Below, in pieces: positions 4,245 through 58,760 of a DNA stretch of 64,000 bases (position 1 is its first letter; every line of letters begins with the position of its first letter). The notes beneath the pieces were generated by a model, which saw only the letters and a list, made by a program, of their open reading frames with translations, ran no database searches and was not told the origin of the DNA. Location of the stretch: the NCBI GenBank assembly GCA_963965975.1, contig OZ014412.1, positions 1,118,501 through 1,182,500 of the forward strand, given 5' to 3'. Both the position numbers and the translations under genes were made by a program. This stretch comes from Xestospongia bergquistia. Lineage: Eukaryota; Porifera; Demospongiae; Haplosclerida; Petrosiidae.

Positions 4245-7200
4245 TTACTTCTTGTTACCAGTTTGTAGATCACCTCCTCCTCCATCTAGATCTGTAATGT
4301 ATTAATGTAATCTCATCACTGTTATATCATATACCTTTATTGAGTGTCATTAGCTTTGTCTTCCTCTTCCTACCACAAAGTCTACAAATAACAACCATTA
4401 ATATTGAAACTAAAGCTCCAATTGTCACAACAAATACACCACCACCAAATATCCAATTGAAATCTAGTGAAACTAGAGTGTTAACAATCTAAATAACACA
4501 TTTAACATACCAATATCATCAGATATTCCAATAGTAGGTACAATTGATGTCATTATGTTGGTAGTACTGGTAATGTCACTGATCAGAGAGCCTGTCTCAT
4601 CATTAGGTATAGTACCTAGTAAAATATAGAACAATATAGCAATGTAATACATTACATAATACTTACTAGTAATAATAATAGTCTCAATAGGAGATGGTAG
4701 TAGTAAAATATACTTCAGTACTTGAGGGTATACAACAGATGGGTTAGTTATAATAGTACCATCTACTATATCATGACCTGTCACAGTATAGTTACCACTA
4801 ACTGGTAGACTTATATACTGGTATATTGTACTCTCCTCTATACTGGATTTAGTTATATTAATAGACTTCACAGTTCCTTTAGAAAACTCTCTAAATATCA
4901 CATGACATCCATCAGCGGTAGATCTCTCAGCAAACCTACACTCTACAACAACTGATCCATTATCAGAGTAGTACTGTAGAGTGAGTCTTTGAACATGATA
5001 AGTTGCTACAGTGACAGCTAAAATACTTTAATATCAAACAGAATAGGTACTTACTAAAATATGATTCATTCTTAGCTTTAATGTGATCAAAAGAATCCAC
5101 TATGTCAGCAATAAAAACACAATTCATTTGAGGACCAATCTTTGTTATGTTATAGTTAACAGTCACTGACTCTTTATCTTCTGAAGAATAGACAATATCA
5201 GCAAGAGCATGTTTTTCTTCTGTTCCCTGGGAGTTGTCTCTAGTAACACCCAGTAAAGTACTGTTACAGAGTTTTGGAAAACCTTCAACCTAAAGTACAA
5301 TCAATAAACATTTATATATTCCTGAAAAAACTGATTGGTTAATTTAATTACTACAATATTTCCAATTACAATATTTGTATAAAAGCAGCAATATCTATTT
5401 TAATTCAGGTCCATGCAAGAGGGGAGAGGTTATCATTCAAAGGTGGCAACTACTCAAGGGCAGTTTGATTCAAGTAAATAAAAATATTGTTATACCAATA
5501 CTTGTAGTAACATTATTTGATACAAAAAGTAAATATCACACTTTTTAGATTTTTTTTCTATGTATTATAGAATTGACTGTTCATGTAGAAATTATATTTG
5601 GCCTTAAACAAATCCAGATGGTGAGCTAGGGATACTACGGAATTCAATACATCACATAAGTCAGTTATTATGGACTGTCAATTCCATAGTTATTAGCAAT
5701 TATATAGTACTTTACAATGTTATCATAGAGATACAAATGTACATGAATTAGTTAAAGGAGATAATTTATTCCAACAGAGAACGAATGTGCTTACGGTAAC
5801 TTTGAAATGTATAGAAACATTTTTTTGCGTATTAAAGATGACACTGTGGTCAGGTTGGATAATGATGTACATTTCTATGAAATTATAGATAAATTGGGTC
5901 ATTAATTAATTGCTAAAATCTACCTTCAGAGTATATACTTTGAACAACAGTGCTATTAGAACTATATCCTCCATTGTGTGTTACTATAACAGTAGCAGTG
6001 TAAATATCACAGACCATGAGGTTATATAACTTGTAAGATGTATCATTAGTGATATCATTATATAGTAGCTGGCCATGTTGGTTCTCTATGTAAATATGAT
6101 ATGATAGTGGATAGTTCTGAAATGGATGAGACCAGGTTAGCCTGGATGAACTGGTGAGACTGAAATTGAAGTAAAGGTTTTCTTTTGGTATCGGTGCAAT
6201 ACCTATCATGAAATATAGTTTCACAATAAAAATTTTATATAAACTAATCCATCCTTAGGTACAAACTGTATGTGTAATAGTATAGTTAATTAAAGTATTA
6301 AATAACCCTCACTATATGGGACTTCATTATAATAATATTAATTGCTACTAAAAGTAGGGAAATGCAAAGCAATGTGTTGACATCAAATGCAGATTATAGA
6401 AAAAGCATTGTGTATCAATTTTTCTTCTGAGTTGGGATGTAGTTACTATAGTCTGTCACTTTAATTCCTGAGGAAATCATAATGTACAAAGATCTCAATT
6501 TGCACTTAAAACAAGATTGTGTTGTTTATCAAAAGATCATGCAATCTACTGATAATAGAAAGACAAATAGAACAAGCTATTGTGAGGCCATAATAATACT
6601 ATTATTGAAATAGATCATCAAAGTACACTCTGGTTTATTCCTTACTCAAGTGCTATTTGATCATCAAAACGGTTTTTTTTATCAATATAAGCATAAAAAG
6701 TAATAAAAAGTTGCATGTGCCAGGCAGTTCTATATATTACTGTAAAAATCAATTGGTTGATTTGACCATATATGGTTGTACACATTGCATGTATTGATTT
6801 GTTTATGTAACTAATGGTTAAAACTAAAATCATATTTTTTAATTTGTATTTGCATGGATGCATGCAAGCTAAATATTGTTGAAAGAAATATAATCCAAAC
6901 TACCATCATATTAATAATAGAAGATTGGAATATATGAAAAAGCAGTGTTTCCAGAATACTTAATTGCTTTGAAGCATAATCTACAGACCACATCTTTTCT
7001 CTCTTTTTTTCCCTTCAATTATATGACCATCTTTAGCTGGAAAGCCAAAGTACTTCCACATTATGCTTTTGCTCCCTCCAAAGGAAAGAGTGCTTGGTTT
7101 GACATAGCTGTAGTAGTTGTGGTAGATCAACCAGCTGACAAAATAAACATGTGGTTTTCATTGCGCATGCTCAAATTAAACACGTGGTTTCTACCGTGAT

Positions 7201-7726
7201 GAATATAGCTTAGAAACAATTATCAAATCATGATAGCAACAAAAATATCACAATATTTTAACTATCAATACTATCGCCCAGGCCTATTGTATTCATAACT
7301 TAACAATGAGTTGTACAAAGCAAATTGGAAACTAACCTTTAACCCTCAACGTAGTTCCTTTTGAATTAAAGCTCTCACAGTAAACAATACATCCAACACG
7401 TATCCCATCATTAATAGGTAGTGCTCTTATAGTTAGTACTGATGACCACACATCAACTGATATATTGTTAATAGTTACTGATATATCTCTGTTTTGTGTA
7501 ATGGCGTTAGTAAGTGAATGGTCATTTATCGTCCAAACCAATGTATTTCCTGTACCCTCACAGGTAAAGTTCACTAGTGTATAAAGTGTTGGTAAGTCTG
7601 ATAGGGTGGGAGCTGTAGTAATTTTAGCAGCTGAAAAGTACAGTATCAATCTTAATAAAACAAAAAACGCCACTTACTAGTAGAACCAGATATAAGTATG
7701 AGGGATAAAAGTACAGTAATGGCCAT
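4245..7726 (-). CDS. Receptor gene B: Ig/FN3 single-pass membrane receptor, short tail
   Basis: Predicted type I membrane receptor of 518 aa. Exons, 5' to 3': 7678-7726 (signal peptide MAITVLLSLILISGS), 7337-7630 (Ig, with NFTCEG and SVLTIRALPINDG), 5924-6202 (FN3-like, with SYHIYIENQHGQLLYND), 5795-5874 plus 5055-5289 (third ectodomain, D3), 4667-5005 (fourth ectodomain, D4), 4511-4615 (stalk), 4335-4463 (TM, VFVVTIGALVSILMVVIC then basic GRKRKTK) and 4245-4291 (tail ending TGNKK, stop). Every junction has GT-AG ends and the phases close exactly, mostly 1-1. The cytoplasmic tail is about 30 residues and has no tyrosine motif, so this would be the short-tailed partner type. The final GTAAGT overlapping the stop could be a donor to an alternative longer tail. 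Ligand and function are unknown; an immune or self-recognition role is inference. Confidence 0.8.
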
Positions 7727-9298: not shown

Positions 9299-12200
9299 TT
9301 AATTTTCACATATTGGATGATGATCCTAAAATTTGTATTAATATCATGTAAAATATTTAGACTTACTTGTTTTTCCAATGATCGTTGTTCAGATTTAGGA
9401 TACATAACAATATCTTCTTTCCTTATATGACAAGGTACTTCAGTAATGTTCTCTGTTGTCTGTAATAACATCACTAATATTTAATGTATTATTAATGTAT
9501 TATTACCACTGTGTTAAAGTGTCCACAAATATCAGCATATTGTATTGGAACATCATTAGTGGGTGGAGCTTTAGGATGAGTAGTGGATACTTCCACTTCA
9601 ACATAATGAGATTCTGCTTTTGAGGTATTGCTCAATTTTTTGTTACTTCCTAAACTGACTATTGGTCTCTCTTCATAACATGTCATATCATCAGACATTA
9701 ATATACCATTATCACTATAATGACCAGTGTGTGTCATTGTTGTTGGTTTCGTAAAAGGAGAGCAATCATCTAAATGATCCTATAAGAAAAGATTTAGGTC
9801 ATTTATTAATTAATAGTTATTTACTTTTCTTTTCATTTGTTTACACTGACTATATGATATATCATGTTCTGTAGTATTCTCAGTAAATGATGTTTCTTTT
9901 ACATCAGATGTAAGAGGGATATCATTGCTTTCATCTTGATCAATAGTTGAGTTAACAGCCTCAAACTGTAGTAATAATTATATTTATCAATAGTGCATTG
10001 TCATGGCAGCATTAGTTCAATGAACATTTAGTACAGAGGGAAGATTGACAATAATTCTATTATAGTTAATGTCATTGATATATAAAAACAGATACTATAA
10101 GAGATATTTTAAGTAGAGTATTTTGAATTATTCAAGTCACCATTCTCTTGGCAATACTAAAATTTACACATCACAAAACAAAATAAAATTACAGTAAATA
10201 ATGATATACTCTAATTGTTTATACATGATCATGTTCTATTTTTCAATACAGAAACTATCATAAGCCCTTGAGAAAAAGTCTTCAATCACTAATTACAGAT
10301 CTATTGTGGAATTTGTTTATGAATGTTAATTTTTGCAATTGCTAAATAGTTACTGTAATAATTTATTTATGCATTGTATAATTGTGGAATTCAATTTTGT
10401 AGAAGAGTCTTCAAATTTAAATGAAAATTAAGAGATGGAGAGTATTAAATTGTTCACTTTCTGTTAAAATTAATTTTAACCAGTAATGGCTATACAGACA
10501 ATGTTGACAAATGCTAGTCATTATTACTAGTCATTTCTAGTAATAACTGGAAATGACTACTAATTTATAGTACATATTTCCAAGAGAGTAACAAGTTGGT
10601 ACACTAGCAATTCATTGCAATCATATACTGGTAATCCAATCATATTATGAGCATACACCAGTGAGAGGGTGATGGTAAAGGGTAATTTTAATTGATTATA
10701 ATTAATTACAGTTTTTATGATAATTGTAATTATTTGCTAAAATTGCAATAACTGTTCATTGCATTCACTAAACAATTGTAATTAACCACAATTATATTAA
10801 TTGCTGGGGAAACTTCATACTCAATTATGAATTTAGTTAAACTACATGTTCACTATTTTAATCCAAATATGGCTTCTAGAAATAAGACCCTTGTCTTTTA
10901 CCATTATTCTGATATGGTTGATAGTGGTGGCTTTATATCCTTTAAGATGTCATTAAAGTCTAAAAACCTCTAAACACTAATTCTCTTAAAACTTAATTCC
11001 AACTATATGCAATTGTTTATTCATTGTCATGTAATGTACATTTCTAGTAACAGTAATAATTGTAATTGGGAAAAATTAGTTGTACTTGTAATTGATTACT
11101 CTTGAAGTAAATATAAGGGTAAAGATAACGTTAAATGCAATAGTAATGGTAATAATGATGGTAATGGTAATGGTAATTGTAATGATAGTGGTAACAGTAA
11201 TGGTAATGATAAATGTAATGGTAAATGGTAATAATACTCGTAGTGGTAATGGTAATGATAATGGTAATGGTAATGGTAATTGTAATGGTGAAATGATCAA
11301 GTAATTGTAATGGATATTAATTACATTGAGACTGTAATGGACAAATCACTGGCATACATTATTATAATAACAAAGATATAATAGATCTAATGAACAAATC
11401 TACAAGGATCACACTTATATCATCACTTACATTATCATGTGATGATGACTTCATTAATAATGAAGATGACTCTTTAAAAAAGGTATTACAAGGTATAGTA
11501 AGAGGTGTGTCTTCATTATCCGATAATAATAATTGATTATGTTCATTAACACAACTCATTTTAGATGTCACAGAGGAAATAGTCTGAATGTTCACAGTAC
11601 TGGTATGAGAGAACTCTAGTGAAGTGGTTAGAGCTTGATGTGGTATAACAGGAGGTGATATAGACTGTGAGGGTGGAGGTTGTACTTGAGGAGATATAGT
11701 TGATTGATGTTGTCTTCTTATGTCAAGTAACTATATATGGAAATAATGACATCATCACTGTTTGTCATCCTCTATTAACACTAATAGTAGTACCATAAGA
11801 CAAACATTCATTCAATAGTTATACATCATATTAACTTCTGTTAGTTAGATCTAGTTAGTTATTAAACATTAAACACTATAATACGATAAAATGTATTCAC
11901 TAATGTATTTACTGTTTAGACACTTTATGAAACCAATGATACAAATCTATCTACTAATATATAAACTAAAGTATTATACTATCAAGTAGTGAGAATAGTA
12001 CATACCTCATTCTGACTTATATGATAAGGATCAGCTACTACTGAAGTGCTTGTAGCAGCTGTAGTTAACTGAACTGGATCTTCATAACTAATATAAGGTA
12101 ATAGAGTAATGATAGTAATATGTAGTAGTAATATACTTGTTATTTGTAGCTTGTTGATAATGAACTACTGCTCTCTCTATTAGTAGAATATAAAGTGAAT

Positions 12201-14079
12201 GTATTAGTATTACTAACTCCATATACCTTCACGGAGTAACGTTAATTGTCTCTTTCCCCTCCTCAGTACAATAATACAAGTAAATGCTATCAGGGATATT
12301 ATAATCATCAACAGTATAACCATAGCAACTAGAATACCAGATATCAAATAGATATTTCCTGGACCATAAATAATTTCCGGTGTGACCTAACATGTATATT
12401 ATTTAACCCACCTTTTGGTTTTAAAGGAATTGACATACTACTTACACTAGAAATGTCACTGATCAGAGAGATTTTCTCATCACTTGATGATTTGCCTAGT
12501 AAAGTACCATATGACAGAGTATATGACAATTTGCTGGTAGTATTAACAGTCTCAGTAGGAAATGGTAGTAGTAGGACATATTCTAGTACTTGAGGGTACA
12601 CAACAGATGGGTTAGTTATAATAGTACCATCTACTATATCATAAGCTGTAACAGTGTAGTTACCACTAACTGGTAGACTTATATACTGGTATACTCTACT
12701 CTCCTCTATACTGGATTTAGTCATATTAATAGACTTCACAGTTCCTTTAGAAGGCTCTCTAAATATCACATGACATCCATCAGCAGTAGATCTCTCAGCA
12801 AACCTACACTCTACAACAACTGATCCATTATCAGAGTAGTACTGTAAAGGGAGTCCTTGAACATGATAGGTTGCTATATTTGTGATAAAAAGTATCAATT
12901 TCATTTAATGAACTCACTAAATGATGACTCGTTCTTTGTTTTAGACATATTAAAATAATCCAGTATATCAGCAATGAAGATATAGTTCAGTTGAGGACTT
13001 ATATTTGACACAGTATAATTAACAGTTACTGATTTATCTTCTAAAGAAGAATGAATATATTTTTTATTGTGTTCAGTTTTTGTTCCATTCAATGTCTCTT
13101 CTCTTGTAATACCCAGTAATGTAATATTACAAAGTCTAGGATAACCTGTAATCTTTAATACCACATAATACATCATGTAATGATAATATTATTAACTTAC
13201 AATAACATGAAATTCTACATCAACAGAATTATTATATTCATTAAAGATAACATCATGATCAGGTGAGATCATAGCATAATACTCTGTAATTCAATTAAGT
13301 TTAGAATAAGAATGAAATTGTTAACATACCTCCATTATACTCCTCTTGTATAGTAACATTACTAGAACTATATTCTCCACTATGAGCTATAACAGTAGCA
13401 GTGTAAATATCACAGACTGTGAGGTTATATAACTCATAAGATGTATCATTAGTGATATCATTATATAGTAACTGGTCATGTTGGTTCTCTAAATAAATAC
13501 AATATGATTTTGGAGTGTTCTCAGAAGAAAATAATGGAGGAGACCAGATCAGCCAGCCTGAGGCACTAGTGATGTTAAAAGTAAAATGAACATTTTCTAC
13601 TGATGTGATACCTGCAAATAAACAAAACAGTGACTTGGTAGTGTAGAACATGATAACTTACCTTTAACTGTGAAAGTAGCACCTTCAGATGCAAAATCAA
13701 GATTTTGATCTAAAACAGCACATCCAACAGTTATCCCATCATTAATAGATAATGCTCTTAAAGTTAGTACTGATGACCACACATCAACTGATATATTGTT
13801 AGTAGTTACTGATATCTCTCTGTCTTGATTACTAGGATCAACAGGTGAATTACCCTGTACTGACCATAACAATGTATCTCCTGTACCCTCACAGGTAAAG
13901 TTAGCTAGTTTGTAAAGTAGAGCAGTCATTGATGTAGGAGCTACTGTGATATTAGCTGTAATACGGGTATGCATATATATAAAATGTATAGAGAATTTAA
14001 CTTACATACCGGCTTCATTTAATGACCAGGGTAAGACAATAGTCATCATGAGAACAGTTCTTAAGACCATTTTAGCCAT
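9299..14079 (-). CDS. Receptor gene C: Ig/FN3 receptor with long ITIM-bearing tail
   Basis: Predicted receptor of 827 aa. Exons: 14010-14079 (signal peptide MAKMVLRTVLMMTIVLPWS), 13662-13955 (Ig), 13330-13611 (FN3-like), 13201-13283 and 12918-13152 (D3), 12412-12873 (D4 fused with stalk), 12227-12328 (TM, VAMVILLMIIISLIAF), then tail exons 12137-12176, 12006-12087 (N-YEDPVQL), 11431-11730 (Pro/Ser/Gln-rich), 9825-9965, 9507-9779, 9367-9459 and 9299-9325 (ends ICEN, stop). Exon 9507-9779 encodes SHYVEV and IQYADI; both fit the ITIM consensus (S/I/V/L)xYxx(I/V/L), the docking site for SH2 phosphatases in animal inhibitory receptors. Phases close across all 14 exons. The D4-stalk intron seen in relatives is read through here. 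Inhibitory signalling is inferred from the motifs alone. Confidence 0.8.
11108..11330. repeat. Imperfect (GGTAAT)n hexanucleotide-type repeat
   Basis: A run of GGTAAT/GGTAATG units with scattered variants lies in the 1.5 kb intron of gene C between tail exons 11431-11730 and 9825-9965. Open frames on both strands here are low-complexity artefacts of the repeat, not genes. Confidence 0.8.
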
Positions 14080-15559: not shown

Positions 15560-16390
15560 ATTAAAGTATTTATAATAGATCCATTATCAGAATAGTACTG
15601 TAGAGTGAGTCCTTGAACATGCTAGGTTGCTATAGTGATAATTACAGAGAATTACATCAATCAAAAATACTATACTCACTAAATGACGACTCATTCTTTG
15701 TTTTAGAGTTATTAAAATAATCCAGTATATCAGCAATGAAGATATAGTTCAGTTGAGGACTTATATTTGACACAGTATAATTAAAGATATATTCCAGTAA
15801 TTGAGGATACACAACAGATGAGTTAGTTATAATAATACCATCTACTATATCATGAGCTGTTACTGTATAGTTACCACTAACTGGTAGAGTTATATACTGG
15901 TATATTGTACTCTTCTCTATACTGGATTTAGTTATATTAATAGACTTCACAGTTCCTTTAGAAGACTCTCTAAATATCACATGACATCCATCAGCAGTAG
16001 ATCTCTCAGCAAACCTACACTCTACAACAACTGATCCATTATCAGAATAGTACTGTAGAGTGAGTCCTTGAACATGCTAGGTTGCTATGGTGGTGATAAA
16101 AGTATTAATTTCATTTAATAAACTAAAAATGATGACTCAATCTTTACTTTAGAATTATTATAATAATCCAGTATATCAGTGATTGGCATTTTCTAATGTC
16201 AACACTCCATATTACTTATGTGCATAATCTCCCAAAAAGGAATGACTTCAATCTATGAAGTCAAAACCAACATAGTATACTATATTATAATAATAACTTA
16301 TTGCTTACCTCATTACATTATTATGACATTACACTGATGTTATAGAAGTACTTGATATCTTTAATAATTAAAGTATTAATAATAGATCTA
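15366..16390. repeat. Local direct duplication of about 200 bp, with a third copy at 58745-58975
   Basis: About 15366-15575 and 16184-16390 are close direct repeats, marked by GATTGGCATTTTCTAATGTC, CCCAAAAAGGAATGACTTC and CACTGATGTTATAGAAGTAC. A third, more diverged copy lies at about 58745-58975 in the partner segmental duplication. Receptor exon scraps lie between the two local copies, so the arrangement probably arose by unequal exchange. Confidence 0.7.
15560..16130 (-). pseudogene. Rearranged receptor ectodomain fragments (D4 and D3)
   Basis: Matches to the receptor D4 exon (start of exon at about 15585-15635 and again at 16035-16085; body at about 15790-16034) and D3 exon (15677-15785) are present in scrambled order. 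At about 15785 the end of D4 runs directly into the middle of D3 with no intron, giving a chimeric open frame (15657-15980). No signal peptide, TM or tail is nearby. The ISYxx-like repeats of the intact genes (QYITLPVSGNYTV) are still clear, so the copies are fairly recent. Confidence 0.7.
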
Positions 16391-18625: not shown

Positions 18626-18669
18626 TATATACATAGCAAAAAGTACAATTTATGTCATTTAGTTTTCAT

Positions 18670-28700: not shown

Positions 28701-29418
28701 ACAATAGCCAACTATCACTTACCATCACTATAACAGTAGCAGTGTAAATATCACAGACTGTGAGGTTATATAACTCATAAGATGTATCATTAGTGATATC
28801 ATTATATAGTAACTGGCCATGTTGGTTCTCTATATAAATGTGATATAATATCAGAGAACTCAACAAAACTTCAGATAAATATGGAGAGGACCAAGTCAAT
28901 ACAGAAGTAAAATCAGGACTAAAAACAAATTGGACATTTTTCACAGGTAAAACACCTGGTCAATAGAAATAGCATTTTCACTGATAGACACAAGTCTATA
29001 TTACCTTCAACTGTCAGTGTAGCTCCTCTCGATATAAAAGTGAGACTTTCAGTTAAAATGGCACAGGCAACACTTATTCCATCATTAATAGGTAGTGCTC
29101 TTATAGTTAATACTGATGACCACACATCAACTGATGTATTGTTAGTAGTTACTGATATCTCTCTGTCTTGATTACTGGGATCAAAAGGTGAATTACCTTG
29201 TACTGACCATAACAATATATCTCCCGTACCCCCACAAGTAAAGTTAGTCAGTTTGTAAAGTAGAGCACTAACTGATGAAGGAGCTACCGTGATGTTAGCT
29301 ATATGAAAAGGAATACAAATCGATTTAACAAGGTCAATACCATCTGCTTCCACATACCAACAGCATCTGCCTCTCTCATAGTTAGAACTACAATAGTTGG
29401 CAAAAGCAAAAAAGCCAT
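25792..29418 (-). CDS. Receptor gene F: Ig/FN3 receptor with YEDL-bearing tail
   Basis: Predicted receptor of 544 aa. Exons: 29358-29418 (signal peptide MAFLLLPTIVVLT), 29005-29298 (Ig), 28659-28955 (FN3-like), 28529-28608 and 28205-28442 (D3), 27840-28157 (D4), 27659-27790 (TM, TITIVVSALIAVILVV), 27575-27611, 27471-27525 (N-YEDLAGLVNF) and 25792-25914 (acidic LSEVPPLDVDADTVPV, ending VTIN, stop). Phases close throughout. The D4 exon joins the TM exon directly; no stalk exon was found. The tail has one YxxL motif (YEDL), a half-ITAM or endocytic-type signal, and a repeated VPPxD/VPPF pattern. The last intron (25915-27470) holds a piggyBac-like element and a local tandem duplication. Role in recognition is inferred from the family plan only. 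Confidence 0.8.
26029..26430. repeat. Tandem duplication of about 192-210 bp at the element edge
   Basis: Copies 26029-26220 and 26221-26430 are nearly identical; the second has an extra short repeat of CTCTTATTATCAATAA. Each contains flanking DNA plus the TTAA and first 70 or so bases of the piggyBac-like element that continues intact only from the second copy. The duplication therefore happened after the insertion. Confidence 0.9.
26362..26990. mobile_element. piggyBac-like non-autonomous DNA element, copy 1
   Basis: The element is bounded by TTAA at 26358-26361 and 26991-26994. Its ends are CCTCACTG at left and CAGTGAGG at right, a terminal inverted repeat. Near the right end CCCTCGCTGTG and CACAGTGAGG form a subterminal hairpin. 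It is about 629 bp with no transposase. A second copy (39879-40530) lies in the opposite orientation with the same internal sequence. TTAA duplication with CCT-type ends is characteristic of piggyBac relatives. It sits in the last intron of gene F. Confidence 0.8.
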
Positions 29419-44190: not shown

Positions 44191-45193
44191 ATAATTATAA
44201 AAATTCTGTATTATTTGTTCAATAATTATGAGACTTATAAATAATTTTTTTCTTTTATTTATGAGATTTTATGATCAATTTCTCAGATAAACATGGAACA
44301 AAGAAATGTTTTTTGTTCTTCTAGACAATCTGGCCCTATACAATAATTGAAGTTTTATAGAAACATTCCGATTGCAATTCCAATGCACTGGTTATAATAT
44401 GCATAGGCTGTCAACGTGGATGGGTTATGATTTTATTAATTTCTATATATAAATGAGTATGTTTGTTTTCACTGTTTATTATATTGTTGTATACATCTAT
44501 ATAGATGTATACAACAATATAATAAACAGTGAAAACAATTATACCCATTTTTATATATAGCTAACACATGGTCCAAAACAATCAAAGGACTGTCTGGAAT
44601 GTGTAGTGTTTAAAAAGGTTTAGTTAGGTTCATTTTACAACCAGCCCTATTTTCGATCACACATATTAACTATATATATGGTATGAGACCATCCTTGATG
44701 ATGATGACAGTGTGGAGCTATTAGAGCTATTAATAAAGGTGGGTGCTAAGACTAATATTACAAACAATGTAGGTTGTGATGCATACATTCATATATATGT
44801 ATGTATGGATAATGTAACAATAATGTTATAATGTAACAATAGTTTAACTACGTTGGAGGTACAGCAGTTCTTTAATTAAGGCTTATTGGTTAAGCTAAGC
44901 CATTTACAGTTGCAACAGCAATAACTAATAAATGAAATGATGCATCTTGTGATGTAATTTGTCAAATAGACATGGATACTAAGACGTTTCAGAGCAGGTA
45001 ATAATTAAGTTGCCATAACTTCAGAAAAAAAATTGTCATGAAAATTCCCACAAAATTAGTAGAAAATTGTACTTACGATATGAGGAATAAAGTTTACTAT
45101 ATTGCATTTTTAACAGATAGATGAATGGACAAAGCAAGTACTGAAACTATATCTATACTTAGAGTAGCAAATATTAATAAGTGAATTACTTAC
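44191..45193. other. Intergenic stretch with a large palindrome
   Basis: No exon recognised. It contains the palindromic unit at 44463-44538 and otherwise plain AT-rich DNA. Confidence 0.4.
44463..44538. repeat. 76-bp perfect palindrome, possible foldback element
   Basis: Two 38-base arms meet at 44500/44501 (CATCTAT|ATAGATG at the centre) with no mismatch. Weaker symmetry continues outward for about 20-25 bases each side (TATATATAAATGAGTAT against ATACCCATTTTTATATATA with small gaps), so the whole foldback may span about 44440-44562 and be edged by TA. It resembles a palindromic MITE. A perfect match over this length implies recent origin or active homogenisation. Confidence 0.85.
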
Positions 45194-47016
45194 TTCACTA
45201 TGTAATAATGTGGTATTTGGAAACTCAGCTAATTCTTCATAACTAACAGATAATGATAATAATAGTATCTTTTTTAAGTGAGATGACATAACATACTTAT
45301 TAGCTTTTGAATTTTGTAGTGATCAGATATAATTATAGCATTTAACTTATATGTAATAATATTGTTTTAGCTTTACTGACATGTGCTAATACTATTTTCC
45401 ATTGTAATATTATAACAATATCAACTGCAGCCACTATAGACACAAGTAAAATGACAATAGTCCCAGATAATGTAACTAAACAGTAAAGCATCCATTAACT
45501 CTATTATAAGAAATAGATAATACAAAATGTACTACTCATTACTTACTATCATAGCAGGAAGGTAGTAAGATATATTCCAGTATACAACAGGTGTGTTAGT
45601 TATAATAGTACCATCTACTATATCATGAGCTGTCACAGTATAGTTACCACTAACTGGTAGACTTATATACTGGTATACTGTACTCTCCTCTATACTGGAT
45701 TTACTCATATTAATAGACTTCACAGTTTCTTTAGAAGACTCTCTAAATATCACATGACATCTGTCAGCAGTGGATCTCTCAGCAAGCCTACACTCTACAA
45801 CAACTGATCCATTATCAGAACAGTACTGTAGAGTGAGTCCTTGAACATGATAGGTTGCTATGGTAAAAAGAGATTGTGTTAAAACAATAGAGAATAACAT
45901 ACTTACTAAATTATAACTCATTCTTTGTTTTAGAACTATTAAAATAATCCAGTATATCAGCAATGAAGATATAGTTTAGTTGAGGACTTATATTTGATAT
46001 ATATAGTATAGATAACAATTATTAAGTCATTGTCTTCTGAATAATATTTTTTTGAAGTGTGTTCTGTTTCTGATGGTCCATTTAATGAGCTCCCAGTAAT
46101 GTACTATTACAGAGTTTAGGATAACCTGTAATTTATCAATTATAATATATGAGAGAGAACACTGAATAAAAGTAAAGATGATAACTTACAGTAATCCAAA
46201 ATATCACATCAAATTTGTTGACAAACTTATTGGATTGTAAGATATAATAGTATCATACATTTACTTATCATTATATGTTATTATTACTTACCACCAGAGT
46301 TTCATTATGAGTTATCACATTATATGAGGTCAACAATTGCCCCTTGTCATAGATCATCACTACTACAGTAGCAATGTAATTATCATATACAGTGAGGTTA
46401 TATAACTCTTAAGATCTATCCTCAGTGATATCATTATATAGTAACTGGCCATGTTAGTTCTCTATATAAATGTGATACAATAGCTGATAAGTCTTGAATG
46501 AATAGGACCAAGTTAGCCAGCTTGAAGAATTGGTAAAGTTAAAAGTGAAGGTTTTCCACTAGTAAAGCACTTGTTAGAAAATATTTAGTATAATGATATC
46601 AAGCCCAGTATAGATTATACCTTTAATTGTCAATGTAGCTTCTTTCCGTGTTAAATCATTTAAAATTGATCTTATTACATCTAACACTTATTCCATCATT
46701 AATAGGTAGTGCTCTTATAGTTAGTACTGATGACCACACATCAACTGATATATTGTTAGTATATAGTTACTGATATCTCTCTATCTTGATTATTGGAATC
46801 AGTGACTGAATTACTCTGTACTGTCCACTCCAGCAAATCTCCTATGCCCTCACAGATAAAGAGGAGCAGACACTGATGATGGAGTATACTGTGATGTTAG
46901 CTGTATAAATGAAAAACAAAATATGTAGACTTCTTTAAAGTTATGTATCATTTACCTGTAATATCTGTTCCCCTCAAAGTAACTAGAAAGATTCCTAACA
47001 TGGTTAAAACAAGCAT
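45194..47016 (-). pseudogene. Receptor gene H: damaged Ig/FN3 receptor copy
   Basis: The order matches the family: signal peptide 46956-47016 (MLVLTMLGIFLVTL), Ig near 46620-46900, FN3-like near 46290-46560, D3 near 45905-46130, D4 near 45545-45860, TM region near 45400-45500, and a YEEL tail exon ending at 45194. Damage: the FN3 exon has a stop just before ELYNLT (about 46400-46415), the Ig and D3 exons carry small insertions and deletions that shift the frame, and the TM exon has a stop after FTV. D4 is almost intact and its QYISLPVSGNYTV core is unchanged, so the decay is recent. It can still donate sequence to neighbours by gene conversion. Confidence 0.8.
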
Positions 47017-47468
47017 TTGACAAATGATTTAATCAACCAATTTCTTGGTCTAATGTTTATGAGGCTAGAGATCACTCCTGCTATCCTATAACAGAATTAG
47101 TAGTGAGTGAGAGTGGTATAAACAGAATATTAATTACTGTCTCTAGTTTCATGGTAGTTCAACAAACCCTGACAACCAAAAAAGAAGTGTATAGGAAATT
47201 TATGCTTCACAGCTAGTGATAATAATAATTCTTTATTTTTGCATGACTTCTATGATCTGCCATTTTCTCCAAATACCGACCATTCTTGATGTTTAGCCAG
47301 CCTCTCCCCCTAAATGTGATTTATGATCGTTGATGTGACTGGGAGGTATATATGCTTTACCACTCTCATACTTCACTAGAAAATAGCATTTAGTGTAGAT
47401 ACATTACATATGCATAGCTTATGTATCTGTGGTTCAAGAGACAGAGTAGATACTAGAAAAATTTATTC
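47017..47468. other. Intergenic stretch between genes H and I
   Basis: Should carry the promoter of H and the 3' UTR of gene I. No repeat or exon recognised. Confidence 0.35.
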
Positions 47469-49644
47469 TTAAATATTATTAATGTTTTCATAGTCAGCAA
47501 TACATGTCCTACTAGGTTGTACTGTTATATATGATGGATTAGTCTCTAACTCCACTCTTCTACTTCTCATCTTTAATCTGTGGACTGTATACATACATAA
47601 TAGTAATAGAATATACACCTATGATTAATAGTGACATACCTTCCTCGTATGCAGGATTATGAGCAATAACTTGTGGATCAGCTAAAGAATAAAAATGTTA
47701 TACTATAATAGTTAATAATCCCTTTCTCTCTCTCACTTTCAATCTCATGTTGTTTAATCTTAATCTTCTTTAAAGACACAATAACAATAACTCCTGCTAC
47801 TATGACTACTACACCAACAACTAATAAAACTGCAGCTATACAGACAGAAATTAGGATAACTACGGACTCATTGGACCGGTAGATATCTAAAGAGAATGTC
47901 AATCTATTAGGTCACTGAAATATTATATCCCTGATATACCACTAGTGGGTCCTAAAGATGATGTTAATATACCAGTTTCAGTAATATGTGTCTCATCACT
48001 TAACATAATGTCTAAATAACATCAGATTACATGTTAATATTCAAATACATGTTAATGTTTACACTAACTTACTAGTAGTAATAACATTCTCAGTAGGAGA
48101 TGGTAATAGTAAGATATATTTCAGTATTTGAGGATATACAACAGATGGGTTAGTTATAATAGTACCATCTACTATATCATAAGCTGTCACGGTATAGTTA
48201 CCACTAACTGGTAGAGTTATATACTGGTATACTTTACTCTCCTCTATACTGGATTTACTCATATTAATAGACTTCACAGTTCCTTTAGAAGACTCCCTAA
48301 ATATCAAATGACATCCATCAGCAGTAGATCTCTCAGCAAACCTACACTCTACAACAACTGATTGATTATCAGAGTAGTACTGTAGAGTGAGTCTTTGAAC
48401 ATGATAGGTTGCTACATGGTCAATGAACCCTCACTATAATCAAGAGTATTATTACTCACTGAAATATGACACATCCCTTGCTTTGGAGTTATTAAAATAA
48501 TCCAGTATATCAGCAATGAAGATATAGTTCAATTGAGGTCCAGTACATGATACATTGTAGTGAACAGTCACTGACTTACAATCTCCTGAACAACATATGA
48601 TATCTTTATGTGAGTGTTCTGTTTCTGTTCCATTAAATAATTTGTGTCTAGTAATTCCCATTAATGTACTGTTACAAACTCTAGGATACCCTTCAACCTG
48701 TATATATCCATTATAAATTAATGAACACATTGTTAATACTTACAATAACTTGAAATTCAATATCAAAAGAATTAATATGCTCTTTGAAAATGACCTTATG
48801 ATCAGGTAGGATAATAACATAATATTCTGTAAAGAAGTAGTTAGTGTATATTATAATCTAGATAAACAAGTTATTAAAATCAATACCTCCAACATATTTA
48901 TCTGGAGTTGTAATACTATTAGAACTATATACTCCACTATGAACTATAACAGTAGCAGTGTAAATATCACAGACTGTGAGGTTATGTAACTCATAAGATG
49001 TATCATTAGTGATATCATTATATAGTAACTGGTCATGTTGGTTCTCTATATAAATGTGATATGATAGTGGGTAATTCTTAAATGGATAAGACCAGGTTAG
49101 CCAGTTTGAAGAATTGGTAAAGTTAAAAGTGAAATGAAGATTTTCTACTGGTAAAGCACCTGTTTTGAAAGATTGGTTATAAAGAAATCACAAGTTAGAA
49201 TATAGTTACCTTTAACTGTCAATGTAGCTGCTTTGGGTTTAAAACCATATGGATTAAAACTGATCACAGTACACTGAATAGTTACCCCATTATTAATAGG
49301 TAGTGCTCTTATAGTTAGTACTGATGACCACACATCAACTGGTATATTGTTAGTAGTTACTGATATCTCTCTGTCTTGATTACTGGGATTAGTAAGTAAA
49401 TTACCCTGTACTGACCACTTCAGTACATCTCCTGTACCCTCACAGGTAAAGTTAGCTAGTTGGTAGAGAAAAGTTGTAACTGGTGAAGGAGCTATTGTAA
49501 TGTTAGCTATAAAATAATATGATACAAATAATGTTAATTGTGTTATACAAATATTATAAGTACCTTACCAGTTCCGTCTACTGACAAAGGTGTCAGAACA
49601 AAGAGTATCAAAAAAATATTAAGACTCATTTCCATCTCTGTCAT
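47469..49644 (-). CDS. Receptor gene I: Ig/FN3 receptor with NPxY and YENI tail
   Basis: Predicted receptor of 550 aa. Exons: 49569-49644 (signal peptide MSLNIFLILFVLTPLS after MTEME), 49210-49506 (Ig), 48887-49159 (FN3-like), 48744-48826 and 48460-48697 (D3), 48073-48411 (D4), 47973-48011 (short stalk), 47737-47886 (TM, CIAAVLLVVGVVVIVAGVIV), 47640-47681 (DPQVIAHNPAYEE) and 47469-47584 (ETNPSYITV and DYENI, stop). All phases close. NPAY and NPSY are NPxY motifs, known to bind PTB domains or act in endocytosis; YENI fits the YxN pattern bound by Grb2-type SH2 domains. This tail differs completely from that of gene C, yet the ectodomain plan is the same. The same tail recurs in damaged genes J and L. 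Signalling role is inferred. Confidence 0.8.
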
Positions 49645-49774: not shown

Positions 49775-51344
49775 CTATTGTATATCAGTTCCATTATGAC
49801 CAATATGTAGTCCATAACTACTGATAATAACATATTGAACTTCACCCACTAGAATACATCAGGTAGCATACTAGATATAGTAGAACTACCAAAATATATA
49901 TCATGTTGAGGACCATCAAAGTCTTCATTTGCTGATATCTCTTTGTATGGTGGTGGTCCTTCTTGTAATATTGATAATACTAACAGATTTATTGGTACTC
50001 AAGCAGATAGGACTAGAGTTGCTCTTAAATTATTCTCCATTAACCACATAATTATCTAATTAATTAGTTAATATCATAGGATCTTACTCTTCTTGTAGGT
50101 GGAGTTTTAGGACTGTTGTGACAATGTAATGATAAGTTATCTTGTGAACAAAGTGCCTCATGACTCTCTCTCCTCTCTAATGACATGAGACTGGTATTAG
50201 GATTGAGTATGAGACTGGTATCATGATTGGGTATGAGACTGGTATTAGGATTGGGTATGAGACTGGTGTTAGGATAGAAATATCATATTATTATTAATTT
50301 ACATGTACTTAGTATATAAGTAGTCATCATATACAGCAATTAAATACTTGAACAGGATGTGGTAGGTCATTACTTTGAGGACCAGAGGTAACCTCATTGT
50401 TCTCTTGTCTTGTTACCATAGTGATTGATGAAGGAGGTGGGACAAATGATGGAGATTGTGTAGACAATGTTATATCACTGTTTATATTAGATGGAGATAT
50501 TTCATGTTGTAATTGATCTTGTAGTTGACTATCACCTCCTTCATATCTATAATACATATATTAACATGTAATGATCAGTTATAACTTACTCATTAGTAGG
50601 TTTACTTTGAAATGAATCAGTTCTCTTTAAAGTACTTAAATATATGATGTCATATATATGATGATGTCATTGTCACATGATCTACTACTGAGTTCCCAGT
50701 TCTTTCTCCTTCTCTTTTTAATACTATAATACACTACCAATATAACTAGTACTATTACTAACAATATGATCACTATACAAACTGCTATAGCTAGTGGAGA
50801 GAGAGAGATTATATTAATGTGTTATTATTTACATTATATATCAGTAAGTTTGTATACAATGTTTACTGATTTAATAGGTCTAGTATCATCTCCTGATCCT
50901 GTTGTCGTAGGAACTATAAAACAGACAGGTATATCACATGACATATCACATGACACTCACATAATATAGTTGGACTTGGTGTCTCTCTAATACTATTATA
51001 CATTGTACTAGATACATCGGTAACTGTAGATTGACTTGGTTGTGGGGGAGGGAGGACTTGTACTGGTGATATTATTACAGCTGTACCAGATGTGTCTTTC
51101 TGTCCATTATTGTTAATATCAAATATATTAATATTATATATTCCAGTCTCTAGACTTGTAATACAACCAGTAACTATATTCTCTCCATTAGTATGACCAA
51201 TATGTAGTGCAGTATATCCTGAACCTGATATCATCTTCATTTCAACAAAACACCCTCCATTATCAGACCCTATCATAAATGTACATGATATACATGAGAC
51301 CCTATTATCAGTAGATATAGAGGCATTCTGTACTCCATAACTAC
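49775..51344 (-). CDS. Gene J-prime: receptor with a different ectodomain and ITIM/PPPY tail
   Basis: The main ectodomain exon is 50961-51344 (128 codons, phase 1-1) with six cysteines in the pattern C-C, C, C and blocks FMIGSDNGGC and GYTALHIGHTNGE; it does not resemble Ig or FN3 and no family was recognised. A Pro-rich stalk (QVLPPPQPSQ) follows. The TM exon is about 50686-50790 (VCIVIILLVIVLVILVV, then KKRRRK). Tail blocks: TDSFQSKPTNE, YEGGDSQLQDQ, a repeated PNTSLIPN stretch, GPPPYKEI, and a last exon ending VQYVIISSYGLHIG...IQ, stop at 49775-49777. VQYVII fits the ITIM consensus and PPPY is a WW-domain ligand. The signal-peptide exon and the exon between 50790 and 50961 are not resolved, so the 5' end is open. 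Confidence 0.6.
50183..50277 (-). repeat. Coding 24-bp minisatellite in gene J-prime
   Basis: About four copies of a 24-base unit, with ATGAGACTGGTATTAGGATT on the plus strand, encode PNTSLIPN-type octapeptides on the minus strand. The length is a multiple of three, so copy-number change would keep the frame. Confidence 0.75.
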
Positions 51345-52445
51345 CTGTAGTGTAATATTTGGGAGAAGAGAGATAGTTTATAATCTGATAATATAAGTTT
51401 ATAACTCTATACATATGATTTACTGATAGTAATATTACACATAATATTAGATATTATATACACATAATAGTAATATTAGTATTATATTATACATAGTAAT
51501 ATTACACATAATATTAGATATTATATACACATAATAGTAATATTAGTATTATATTATACATAGTAATATTAGTATTATATTATACATAGTAATATTACAC
51601 ATAATATTAGATATTATATACACATAATAGTAATATTAGTATTATATTATACATAGTAATATTACCAATAATGTTTTCCCTTACAATAAACACACCTGTC
51701 AATTGAACTATATAACGCTATTCACATTTAATCATTTGAATTACATCTATTATATTGTGTTACTTGTAATGAGTGTTTGCCAGTATTGTTTTCTCTAGTG
51801 TTACTATGGTTACAATAATAATAGTCACAATGAGATAACAGTGATAGTACATAATGAACACAACTGATAATTAAACACACACAATATATATATCTAGTTC
51901 TATGAGATTGTTTTGATTTGAGAGATAAACAATATTTACTAAATATATATTATGTTATTACCATTATCACTAGTACATCATATGATAGTTGTAATAAGTA
52001 ATAAATTACATGTTTTTAATTACATATATTTAATTAATTACATATCATTTACATCTATACATGTAATTCATTACATATATAGATTATAAACTATCTCTCT
52101 CTCTTTTCTCCCAAATTATTACACTACAGGTATTACAAGTAATGTTAATATATGTATATCATAATATCATAAGATCACTTATAGTAACCCATCTATCATC
52201 TATCATCATAAATCATATTATTACCATTATTATTATTTTCCAATAACCAATATACTCTACCATATAGAATATACTACAATGATACTACCTGTTGTTAACT
52301 TGAAAAACAGTTCCCATGACAACAACATCAATACTACTGGTCATGATCTCAGTAGTCAATAACTAAAAGTGATTGAGGATAAACTTAGAGCTTAACTGAT
52401 CACTAATTAAACAATAACATTATAATTATTAATAATGTGGTATAA
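51345..52445. other. Intergenic AT-rich stretch upstream of J-prime
   Basis: Contains the AT-rich tandem repeat at 51429-51665 and a possible unrecognised first exon of gene J-prime. On the minus strand an ATG near 52333 opens a short frame, but there is no support for using it. Confidence 0.3.
51429..51665. repeat. AT-rich tandem repeat, about 67-bp unit
   Basis: Three full and one partial copies of a unit containing GTAATATTACACATAATATT and ATTAGTATTATATTATACAT. Low-complexity DNA with no coding content. Confidence 0.85.
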
Positions 52446-54537
52446 TTATATTATAATATTTTCATAGTCATCAGTACATGTCCTACTAGGTTGTACTGTT
52501 ATATATGATGGATTAGTCTCTAACTCCACTCTTCTACTTCTCATCTCTAATCTGTGTACTATGTAATGATCATAATATGAACTATACACAGTTATATTAT
52601 GAACATAGTTACCTTCATCATATGCAGGATTATGAGTAATAGTTTGTTGATCAACTATAGAAGAAACCACTTGAAATAATAATTAACTTCACATTCTCTC
52701 ACCTCCAACTTCATGTAGTTAATGTTTCTTCTTCAAATATACAATACTACTGACTACTAGACATATCACTATTATGATAATTACTACTACCACACTAACT
52801 GTACTAGTGGTAATGATGAGAATTGTCTTGTTAGTAGCTGTATATATAACTTGAAAATTATACAAAAATTTAATGCATACTTACATGACACCATTGAATT
52901 TAAAGGAGATTCAGAAAGTTCTACAGATGTAGTTATGTTCTTATCATCACTACCTATCTTCTCAATTGACGTAGTACCTAATAAATTATTATAGAACAAT
53001 AAAATACAATACAATATAGTACTTACTGGTTATAATAATAGCCTCAGTAGGAGATGGTAGTAGTAAGATATATTCCAGTATTTGAGGGTACACAACAGAT
53101 GGGTTAGTACCATCTATTATATCATAAGCTGTCACAGTATAGTTACCACTAACTGGTAGACTTACATACTGGTATACTGTACTCTCTTCTATACTGGATT
53201 TACTCATATTAATAGACTTCACAGTTCCTTTAGAAGACTCTCTAAATATCACATGACATCCATCAGCAGTAGATCTCTCAGCAAACCTACACTCTACAAC
53301 AACTGATCCGTTATCAGAGTAGTACTGTAGAGTGAGTCCTTGGACATTATAGGTTGCTATTAGAAGTAAAGTCTATACATTAAAATTATTTATAACCTTT
53401 TAATTAACTTACAAAATATGTTATAATCATGATTTTTAATTTTATGAAGACTATTTGTAATGTATAAAGTAAAATTGAAAATCATAAGAGGACTTAGATC
53501 AGTTATAATATAGTAAGTGACCAAATCTTCTTTACTGTCAGTAACATTGATAGTGAGAAAATTATAAATCAATTTCTCATTAATTTTTATAAACAGTACA
53601 CAATTAAAAAGTTTAGGATGACCTTTGATCTATATAATAATACACACAATTTAATATCAACAGTTTGTTCACTTACCATTATATTAAATGTCACATTAAA
53701 ATTGTTCTCCCTTACATCAAATATTACAGTATGATTCAATATACTAATAGTGTAATCTACATGGAAATTGAACTAATGACCTTTAGTAATACTACTGACC
53801 TCTAGTGTATTCCTCTTGTATAGTAACATTATTAGAACTATATTCTCCACTATGAGCTATAACAGTAGCAGTGTAAATATCACAGACTGTGAGGTTATAT
53901 AACTCATAAGATGTATCATTAGTGATATTATTATATAGTAACTGGCCATGTTGGTTCTCTATATAAATGTGATATGATATTGGATAGTTCTTAAATGGAT
54001 GAGACCAGGTCAACCAGCCCGATAAGAGATTACATTGATTATATAAAACAGAAATTAACTTTGAACAGTTAAAGTAGCTCCTTTTGATACAAAGTCAAAG
54101 TTTTGACCAAACACAGCACATCCAACACCTATCCAGTTATTAATAGGTAGTGCTCTTATAGTTAGTACTGATGACCACACATCAACTGATATATTGTTAG
54201 TAGTTACTGATATCTCTCTCTGCCTTGATTACTGGGATCAGTAAGTGGATTATTCTGTACTGTCCAAAACAAATCACTACCTGTACCCTCACAGGTAAAG
54301 TTAACCAGTGTGTAAAGTGAAGTGTTGATTGATAAAGGAGCTACTGTGATTATTGCTGTATATATAAAATTTGTGTGTGAAATGTGAACATAAACCTTAA
54401 TACTGAGTTAGTTAGATATCAAAGCATATAATGTTATTATTTAATTATTTACCAACAGGATCTGTGTCTCTAAAAGTGAGAAGAAGACTTCCTATTACAA
54501 ATGTAACGAGCATTAGTGTCCAGTCTTTGTCAGTCAT
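52446..54537 (-). pseudogene. Receptor gene J: damaged copy, sister of gene A
   Basis: Recognisable exons: signal peptide 54453-54537 (MTDKDWTLMLVTFVIGSLLL), Ig about 54060-54356, FN3-like about 53797-54020, a diverged D3 near 53405-53640, D4 53027-53356, stalk near 52880-52980, TM near 52730-52840 (VVVVIIIIVICLVV), and tail exons with NPAY and NPSYITV ending DDYENIII, stop 52446-52448. Damage: a 2-base insertion near 54220 shifts the Ig frame, the first third of the FN3 exon is deleted together with the preceding intron, and a TAA follows KKKH just after the TM. The tail exons downstream remain open and match gene I, so the loss is recent. A short alternative product cannot be excluded. Confidence 0.7.
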
Positions 54538-56795: not shown

Positions 56796-56879
56796 CTAAA
56801 AATATAATAATAAAATCATTAATCTCAACCAAAAGAATGTATCATAACAATTGTACATTATCAATATTAACACTGTTAT

Positions 56880-57120
56880 ATAATATGTATTTAATATTAA
56901 ACTTACCTCCTATTATATTGCAAAGGACACATTAAGATGACAAGTAATCACAGCAATGGAAATGTGGAAACAGAAAAAAACAATAGAGTAAACAAAATAA
57001 TAACATTGAATTCAATACACTTAGAAATTATACTACATTATATCACACTTACCAACTATTATATTGTAAAAAACACATTGAGATCATAAGTAATCACAGC
57101 AATGTAAACGTAGAAATGGA
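56880..57120. repeat. Two copies of the dispersed AT-rich repeat
   Basis: Shares GCAAAGGACACATTAAGATG, CAATGGAAATGTGGAAACAG and TTATATCACACTTACCAACT blocks with the copies at 343-480, 3960-4240 and 23130-23480. Confidence 0.7.
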
Positions 57121-58067
57121 CATGTTTCAGTTCTAAGTTTTAGTGGATGTGTTCTAAGTAATAGTAGATATTTACCATCATTTAAGAACATGTAACTGAC
57201 CAATCACATTCCTTCATTAACTCAGTTTGTGTCATTAACTACTTCCTGCCATTACCATATGAATCTTTTTTAATCCATGCTTTTACTGATTTTCCTTATA
57301 GTAATACAACCATATGGTAACAATAACATGACAAGTAGATACATACATTAATTTTATAAACTTGATATATTTTTTACAATAAAGGTAGTAGTTTGAGAGT
57401 TAGATGATAATGTAGAGTTATTATAATTGAATAACATAACAATAACAATTGTTAATTGCCAATTCATCAAATGACTAATGACCATCCTTGATCAGACTAT
57501 GTGTATTACTTAGTATTGTTGATATTACTGGTTTCATAATCCCATCTATGCCACAGTCTCATACCATATTATAGAAGTGATCATCTATAAATCGTCAACT
57601 AGTGGTCCCTATCATGAGTGGGTGATCATTCACTTGAGTTAACATAACTAATAACTAAATTGAATGGATTACACAGTGACAAGGCAACATCTTTTATCTT
57701 TTCTATTACAACATCTCAGTTACTGCTACAAAGATAAAAGAGATATAATATAATAGAGAAAGTAATTCTCAGAGACAGAAACCAATCTCACTCTCTACTT
57801 TTTGCAGATGACTGTAAGGATTACGATGATTTCCTGATGACTTATTTTACTTAGTTGAATGGGTACATGCATGAACCTCTGATCAATTTTGATGATACTA
57901 AATCTTTAGATGGTGATGGGATCTCACCTTGAATGTTAAAACATACTTGTGCTATCAGATAATATCATGTATTAACATTATTAGTAAATTTTATCTGATG
58001 TATTTTAATTCCTTCATTCTAGAACTTACAAACATCATTTACCCACTTATAATTATATTCTTTACGT
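57121..58067. other. Gene-free stretch
   Basis: No supported exon. The part near 57370-57500 resembles 54830-54960 (duplicated intergenic DNA: GATATATTTT, TTGGTTGATGATA and TAATTGTTAATT blocks). Confidence 0.35.
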
Positions 58068-58760
58068 TTACAAAATAATTTCTTCATAAATGTATGTATT
58101 TCTAGTTAACTGTACTGTTGTAAATGATGGATTAGTCTCTAACTCTACTCCTCTTCTCCTCATCTCAAGTCTGTTCACTATATACAATGTATATAATGAC
58201 TATATTCACATTAATACATACCTTCTTCATGTGTTGGATTGTAACTTAATTATAGCTAATTCATTAACTATTCCTAAGTGTTGTAAGGATAATAGAAAAT
58301 GGTAGCTTTTTAAAATTATCTTACCTTCATTCTGATGTTGTTGACTCCTCTTCCTTTAAAACGTACAGTAATACTAACTCCAGCTAATATTACTACTATG
58401 ACTATTACAATAGTTATACCAATGCTTATAAAGATCACTATGTCATCTGTGTATATAAAAAATAATGTTATAAAAAATTTTACACAATGTCCTGAGAGAA
58501 GATTCTGTAGTAGATTCTCCAGATTTCATAGAACTAGTTATGTCACCAATAGTTTTATCACTTGATATAGTACATAGTAAGATAGAACAATGAAATGGTC
58601 AGAGCTCAGAAGAAGCTAGTCATTGCTTATTTTGAAATTTTGGTAGGTTGCTATGGTGATGATAAAAGTATTAATTTCATTTAATAATCTCAAAGTGATG
58701 ACTCAATCTTTACTTTAGAATTATTATAATAATCCAGTATATCAGTGATTGGCATTTTCT
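58068..58760 (-). pseudogene. Receptor remnant L: TM and NPxF tail, ectodomain lost
   Basis: Exons present: stalk near 58490-58570 (SSDKTIGDITSSMKSGES), TM 58325-58446 (VIVIVVILAGVSITV then RFKGRG) and tail 58068-58177 (VELETNPSFTTVQLT, ending YEEIIL, stop). These match the tail of genes I and J, but the NPSY tyrosine is phenylalanine here. Right of the stalk only the edges of D4 (GGTTGCTATGG near 58650) and D3 (near 58690-58745) remain, joined abruptly to the duplicated block also found at 16184. The signal peptide, Ig and FN3 exons are gone, so this is a truncated copy. Confidence 0.65.

Follow-up and report, generated by a model that had tools for sequence, protein, structure and literature searches.

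A large demosponge family of putative recognition receptors, probably renewed by module exchange at one near-identical exon

Introduction

How does a sponge come by many cell-surface receptors with one outer plan and different tails, and what might they recognise? The question is raised by a 64,000-nucleotide stretch of the Xestospongia bergquistia genome (GenBank assembly GCA_963965975.1, contig OZ014412.1, positions 1,118,501 to 1,182,500; hereafter the window, numbered from its first letter), which holds a minus-strand tandem array of genes that encode, in this order, a signal peptide, Ig, FN3, D3, D4, stalk, transmembrane segment (TM) and tail. From an analysis of this one genome, the array probably forms part of a large family of demosponge recognition receptors at the cell surface, which renews itself as modules are exchanged at D4; a recognition function of the family is likely.

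Sponge aggregation factors are reportedly discussed as recognition molecules. The receptors behind sponge allorecognition are not established. The family described here offers a definite candidate that can be mapped on a single contig and that has homologs in a model species, the sponge Amphimedon queenslandica. A receptor tyrosine kinase of Geodia with an Ig-like domain has been discussed for recognition or early immunity, in the section of that source available (PMC12018476), and the accessible part of a 2025 review calls invertebrate allorecognition mechanisms a complete mystery (PMC12065747).

Results

A sequence-only reading of the window had proposed a tandem minus-strand cluster with a common exon order and different tails. 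The cluster was borne out by tblastn, open frames and splice sites, and the different tails on a common ectodomain plan by tail and TM reading together with splice sites. A splice-site search found an AG acceptor of the right phase at 25/25 exons checked (five each of genes A, B and G, four each of D and E, D4 of H, and an orphan Ig exon) and a GT donor of the right phase at 24/25; D4 of gene B has GC as its sole candidate donor. Five open genes had been counted, of which four (A, B, D and G) proved to have the whole ectodomain open; the partial gene (E), the two damaged copies (F and H) and the scraps stand. The array runs past the window on both sides.

The novelty lies in the mode of evolution: between genes whose Ig, FN3 and D3 exons differ, D4 is near-identical. 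Fifty-seven slices around D4 were taken (8 from the window, the 29 top-scoring D4 matches and 20 chosen by hand farther down the ranking, a non-random sample), and the 37 with Ig, FN3, D3b and D4 intact were compared in 666 pairs, the other 20 being dropped. Median synonymous distance (dS) rose from 0.107 (D4) through 0.357 (Ig) and 0.404 (FN3) to 1.29 (D3b), the last leaving out 91 saturated pairs. By proportion of synonymous differences (pS), D4 was lower than Ig in 653/666 pairs, than FN3 in 655/666 and than D3b in 648/666, and the 12 of these genes that came from the later, hand-picked loci gave dS of 0.123 for D4 and 0.379 for Ig. The D4 exon was 90-94% identical in the three 50-base windows measured (55 copies, 200 random pairs); the DNA flanking it was 62-68% identical on both sides, against 60% expected from shuffled sequence, so that the introns adjoining D4 are close to chance identity.

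The Ig exon has a homogenised core of its own. Among 38 Ig copies, pS was 0.03-0.06 over codons 46-70 and 0.28-0.52 farther out on either side, the core lying below its flanks in 698/703 pairs; likewise, the D4 centre was below the D4 ends in 1356/1485 pairs. The proportion of nonsynonymous differences (pN) was highest (0.34-0.43) in the FG-loop region of Ig, codons 76-90. An apparent Ig identity between copies W27.8 and W30.2 arose from slices that overlapped; W30.2 was left out of the Ig comparisons. A sister subfamily (13 Ig, 12 FN3 and 13 D4 copies) had pS of 0-0.05 in the D4 centre and 0.14-0.21 at the D4 ends; its Ig pN/pS was 0.86 with a bootstrap range of 0.65-1.15, so that positive selection is not shown.

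Two simple causes were ruled out. Plain protein conservation of D4 is countered by likeness at synonymous and fourfold sites, by damaged copies lying about as near the consensus as others, and by a D4 protein that differs between species and subfamilies. Recent whole-gene duplication as a general cause is countered by the different ages of adjacent exons and introns; a few gene pairs are recent duplicates.

D4 looks like the joint where recognition and signalling modules are exchanged, because modules that are 91-96% identical carry different tails and the likeness breaks at or just after D4. Among 25 genes with all parts, four pairs lay within 0.11 of each other in Ig, FN3 and D3b; TM and tail differed in two of these (gene B with L010, L018 with L025), and the other two pairs share tails. 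Conversely, near-identical TMs were found in 12 pairs, 9 of which differ by more than 0.15 in Ig. L010, a near-twin of gene B 101 kb away on the same contig, matches it in 998/1037 columns (96%) 5' of D4; the TMs differ, and the tail is of DPYH type in gene B and of NPxY/YENI type in L010. Up to D4, in exons and introns alike, identity between the two is 0.85-1.0; it then fades within 100-200 bases and is 67% at 330-650 bases past the start of D4. A donor for the 3' part of L010 was sought in L014 and L019, and none was found in either.

L018 reads as a recombinant because it matches L025 5' of D4 and L020 3' of it: on the 5' side 959/1049 columns match L025 and 764/1147 match L020, on the 3' side 204/389 and 290/323, respectively. 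Identity to L025 drops at the D4 end, with two low 60-base windows (0.63) before it, and identity to L020 rises at the D4 start. The 3' stretch gave no signal (197/396) against L024, whose TM exon is alike and spaced differently. Within the Ig exon, distance matrices of the N and C parts were unrelated (rho -0.12, p 0.86, n=38), to be taken with the caution that two halves of the N part also correlate weakly (rho 0.18, p 0.09); Ig pairs exist that are alike in the N part and far apart in the C part.

The family extends far beyond the window. There are at least 237 near-full-length D4 exons in four subfamilies, at least 230 of them at C2:0.44-4.35 Mb on one contig (hand-counted from match tables with the best 150 candidates scored per search, hence lower bounds). 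For the window's subfamily, D4 had at least 129 host-genome matches at E<=0.001 and at least 92 at E<=2.2e-51 (6 with in-frame stops), mainly at C2:0.90-1.42 and 2.10-2.43 Mb; such numbers rule out chance likeness of the cluster copies. A sister D4 subfamily has at least 33 matches at E<=1.5e-47 (C2:0.44-0.77, 1.89-1.91 and 2.25-2.37 Mb), a second subfamily at least 62 at E<=1.7e-47 (C2:2.73-4.18 Mb, 4 with stops) and a further sister subfamily at least 50 at E<=4e-50 (49 at C2:2.81-4.34 Mb and 1 on C14; one with a stop). The second-subfamily loci have the same Ig-FN3-D3-D4-TM plan; D4 alone was read in the two other sister subfamilies. D4 is 25-45% identical between the four subfamilies, and columns C23, F25, C34 and Y73 are invariant across them and the aligned A. 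queenslandica proteins. A lone distant relative (G000:C12:6509525-6510877; D4 38%, Ig 47% identity) is possibly an older single-copy family member. Separately, a dense array of strong FN3 exons lies at G000:C5:0.27-0.77 Mb among the 150 FN3 matches listed.

Outside the host, the spliced gene B ectodomain (430-amino-acid query) matched the A. queenslandica protein P0007 at 32% identity over 89% (E=4e-28). With P0007 as query, 18 further proteins were found, all of A. queenslandica, and a profile search gave 64 proteins, of which every organism-labelled one is from A. queenslandica and the rest are from ENA contigs (best ~8,000 candidates scored in both searches). A. queenslandica tails include NPAY/NPAYET and [DN]PYH motifs, as in window genes G and H (NPAY, NPSY) and B (DPYHIS). 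Because these proteins have the same plan and alike tail motifs, the domain plan predates the split of the two lineages, and two tail types probably do too. The tail motif [DN]PYH[IV] is common to gene B and A. queenslandica P0019 and P0024, and degenerate in P0013; to our knowledge it is not an established motif. No published description of the family was found in the part of the literature that the search covered.

Several observations weigh against exchange at D4 as the whole account. The two FN3 ends were strongly correlated (rho 0.74), so FN3 is not reshuffled, and Ig-TM linkage is partly kept (rho 0.35, p 0.008), so exchange has not erased all linkage. Over the FG loop pN/pS was 0.74-0.82, with windows above 1 mainly at very low pS. 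Synonymous distances in the sister subfamily are much the same for FN3 and D4 (0.083/0.085; 0.089/0.079) and its introns are 70-95% identical, which limits the clean D4-only pattern to the window's subfamily. A. queenslandica paralogs are hardly more alike in D4 (median 0.56) than in Ig (0.52), and five A. queenslandica proteins with all four domains gave 0.71 for D4, 0.70 for Ig and 0.77 for FN3. Between species D4 is the slowest domain (46% identity versus 40% for Ig), so some purifying selection acts. Nor was the sampling of loci random, the first 29 being top D4 matches and the next 20 chosen by hand. Finally, D4 copies of the main cluster differ by 0.059 among themselves, by 0.052-0.078 from those at most other places and by 0.110 from those at one; this near-independence of place is unusual for conversion that decays with distance.

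That last point favours a different cause, namely that D4 and the Ig core are kept alike by constraint on the nucleotides themselves (for example an RNA-level function) and not by exchange, with similarity about equal within and between clusters. We consider this very unlikely: gene B D4 protein has a median identity of 46% to A. queenslandica and the subfamilies are as far apart as given above, damaged copies are about as close to the consensus as others, the recombinants break at D4, and no Rfam family reached its gathering score in the window.

The FN3 exons of genes B (27.0 bits) and G (29.9 bits) exceeded the Pfam fn3 (PF00041) cut-off of 25 bits. The Ig exon is predicted to form an Ig beta-sandwich with paired Cys and a core Trp, and D4 an FN3-like beta-sandwich; D3, modelled within P0007 and not folded alone, shows beta strands to which titin Ig and fibronectin FN3 chains both align. 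Pfam Ig models had no match at E<=0.1 for four window Ig exons and one sister-subfamily Ig exon; A. queenslandica P0021 matched Ig_3 at E=7e-4, below the cut-off. For the gene B ectodomain, Pfam at E<=1 listed fn3 and Ig_J only, and no sushi domain. Against the PDB, a profile search with Ig returned nothing below E=0.27, its matches being variable regions of antibodies and IgNAR; one sequence search gave a single match at E=0.014 and another none at 0.01. The nearest folds were often neural or adhesion Ig/FN3 receptors (PTPdelta, NCAM2, contactin, Dscam), as would suit a Dscam- or protocadherin-like family serving adhesion and cell identity in cell sorting and reaggregation, outside immunity. 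This is rather unlikely, since any Ig-FN3 chain would match those folds, and the varied tails and the damaged copies suggest a rapid turnover of genes by birth and death. Alr and FcoR were not among the fold-comparison matches listed, which excludes nothing.

Tails were read in 35 copies having downstream sequence (28 loci and 7 in the window), with tyrosine motifs read by eye and pattern: 21 were NPxY/YENI, 3 DPYH, 2 YEDL/YEEL and 9 without class. A hydrophobic segment followed by basic residues was present in 35/35 copies, although the finder gives the best segment with no null. Two tail motifs, ISYEDL in gene D and VSYEEL in the damaged gene F, match the immunoreceptor tyrosine-based inhibition motif (ITIM) pattern [ILVS]xYxx[ILV]. 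The prevalence of NPxY/YENI tails makes it possible, as a tentative reading, that the family is a broad pattern-recognition or phagocytic repertoire for microbes or symbionts, in which NPxY tails would drive endocytosis or phagocytosis and ITIM-like tails would restrain. SRCR is another immune receptor family that is expanded in sponges, according to the portion of the source available (PMC10855680). Against this reading, the motifs were identified by eye and pattern, and the second motif is NLSY instead of NPSY in 7/21 of these tails.

All receptor features of the window lie on the minus strand. Gene A (4330..7630; tblastn, splice sites, frames, TM) has Ig at 7630-7337, FN3 at 6202-5924, D3a at 5874-5795, D3b at 5289-5055, D4 at 5005-4667 and TM at about 4488-4330, and its tail has no class. 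Gene B (11985..14079; tblastn, frames, splice sites, TM/tail) runs from a signal peptide (14079-14008, by eye) through Ig (13955-13662), FN3 (13611-13330), D3a (13283-13201), D3b (13152-12918), D4 (12873-12535, with the GC donor) and TM (12386-12216) to a tail with SYEDP and DPYHIS (12089-11985). Scrap C (15571..16085; tblastn; D4-search row C2:1134283) is a D4 fused to a D3b end, followed by the start of a second D4; it has one TAG and agrees with the D4 consensus in 95.7% of 302 columns. Gene D (27396..29418; tblastn, frames, splice sites, TM/tail) comprises a signal peptide (29418-29356, by eye), Ig (29298-29005), FN3 (28955-28659), D3a (within 28642-28466), D3b (28442-28205), D4 (28157-27840), a weak TM near 27750 and the tail with ISYEDL (within 27599-27396).

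The partial gene E (29805..31307; tblastn, frames, splice sites, TM) is open from FN3 onward, with FN3 at 31307-31029, D3a at 30978-30896, D3b at 30841-30601, D4 at 30526-30188 and TM at 29978-29805; its tail, too, has no class. The orphan Ig exon (40654..40947; tblastn, splice sites), upstream on the far side of a retroelement, is possibly its Ig exon. That retroelement, which sits between the orphan exon (40.9 kb) and gene E FN3, has long terminal repeats and is Ty3/gypsy-like by eye (31901-36099; largest open reading frame [ORF] 32366-35917, plus strand); its insertion is very recent, because its 158-bp direct repeats are 100% identical, its ends are TG..CA and it has a 5-bp target-site duplication, AAGCA.

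In damaged gene F (45113..47028; tblastn, TM/tail), Ig lies in two pieces (46860-46677), followed by FN3 (46549-46358), D3b (46132-45905), D4 (45858-45559), a TM near 45494-45345 and the tail with VSYEEL (45322-45113). Gene G (47490..49644; tblastn, splice sites, TM/tail) has a signal peptide at 49644-49567 (by eye), Ig at 49506-49210, FN3 at 49159-48887, D3a at 48826-48744, D3b at 48697-48460, D4 at 48411-48073, TM within 47911-47681 and a tail with NPAY, NPSYITV and YENI at 47670-47490. Gene H (52449..54537; tblastn, splice sites, TM/tail), damaged by an Ig-exon frame shift near 54225, consists of signal peptide (54537-54451), Ig (54356-54061), FN3 (54022-53798), D3 (53772-53393), D4 (53356-53027), TM (52880-52722) and an NPAY/NPSY/YENI tail (52643-52449). 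A last scrap (58071..58749) holds a D3b end, a TM-like segment and an NPxY-type tail, with no D4 match.

Interleaved with these is a second receptor type, LB (49852..51870; tblastn and sequence reading), with a signal-peptide-like segment (51870-51763, by eye), one D4-like domain (51354-51043) that has the four columns invariant in D4, a TM (50821-50639) and a long tail with GPPPY. LB also occurs at 14951-14200, and LB matches, mostly partial, were seen in 7/30 family loci. Minus-strand ORFs at 43738-41857 may belong to a GTPase gene of the Roc type (a Pfam Roc match at E=0.045, short of the cut-off), with related ORFs at 20404-19838 and 63567-63004. The stretches 16.1-20.9 kb and 58.7-64.0 kb have many short ORFs in common in the same order and therefore form a duplicated segment beside the scraps at 16 and 58.7 kb. 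A tRNA search found none.

Discussion

In the explanation we favour, renewal by module exchange at D4, the outer Ig-FN3-D3 part would sense ligand, with most variation near the Ig FG loop, D4 would be a membrane-proximal FN3-like spacer, and the tails would signal by tyrosine motifs (NPxY/YENI, ITIM-like YED/EL, DPYH), the purpose being to recognise self and non-self or microbes. Paralogs would swap modules by gene conversion or unequal exchange, the near-identical D4 serving as the homology joint that couples a recognition module to one or other tail; the shorter homogenised Ig-exon core may act as another joint, at which the two Ig halves are re-assorted. Exchange may be confined to islands where homology persists, the flanks being too divergent for pairing; this would explain the sharp exon edges and the U-shaped pS. 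In this early-branching animal lineage, alike recognition modules on different tails would then be made simply, by one homogenised exon as joint.

Whether the purpose is allorecognition, with a complex that decides fusion or rejection between individuals like Alr of Hydractinia or fuhc of Botryllus, is doubtful. The cluster, the alike modules with different tyrosine tails, the module exchange and the variable Ig FG loop all suit it; however, the copies far exceed the few Alr loci, and the same data fit a repertoire directed at microbes or symbionts just as well. The sponge candidates proposed so far are reportedly aggregation factors (Grice et al. 2017). The part of the recent review available describes polymorphic systems from sponges to humans, with candidates not conserved between sponge, cnidarian and ascidian (PMC12065747). 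The fuller proposal, that a chromosome-scale germline complex of a few hundred multi-domain receptors, in which near-invariant D4 would let any recognition module join any tyrosine tail and a joint inside Ig would reshuffle binding loops, is the long-sought self/non-self system of sponges, strikes us as unlikely on present sequence evidence.

The closest known proteins are uncharacterised Ig-like/FN3 proteins of A. queenslandica (P0007 = A0A1X7U..., LOC109585793, LOC109581525, LOC109585260 and others), which have the same domain order, the D4 core motif STADGCHVIF and NPAY/NPAYET and [DN]PYH tails. They are probably the same family, although D4 there is not markedly more homogenised than Ig. 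Their presence in that species supports the demosponge kinship of the array.

Alr comprises clustered Ig-superfamily genes with ITIM-like tails or tails like the corresponding activation motif (ITAM), and ectodomains of tandem Ig-like domains. The likeness to Alr drawn in the sequence-only reading holds for clustered genes and ITIM/ITAM-like tails and goes no further than layout: an FN3 above the Pfam cut-off, D3 and an FN3-like D4 follow Ig here, in place of tandem Ig domains only. Hydractinia candidates with ITAM/ITIM are mentioned in the available portion of the review (PMC12065747). The same portion describes Botryllus FcoR (fuhc), encoded at one locus, as having a variable Ig, sushi, two C2 Ig domains, TM, and ITIM, hemITAM or core tyrosine tails; the family here shares with it cell-surface receptors, a variable Ig, further domains, TM and tyrosine tails, and differs in layout, with FN3, D3 and D4 after Ig where FcoR has sushi and two C2 Ig domains.

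The family works like paired receptors, a layout that the earlier reading had proposed and that has firmer support here: near-identical modules carry different signalling tails in 2/4 close pairs, gene B with L010 and L018 with L025. In CEACAM, Siglec-11/16 and other paired receptors, as far as the sections available go, gene conversion maintains likeness over a portion of the ectodomain, and the tails signal in different ways (PMC2832619, PMC5701461). The part kept alike there is the Ig-V or extracellular ligand-binding region, whereas here the near-identical exon is the membrane-proximal D4, together with the Ig-exon core, in some ninety copies.

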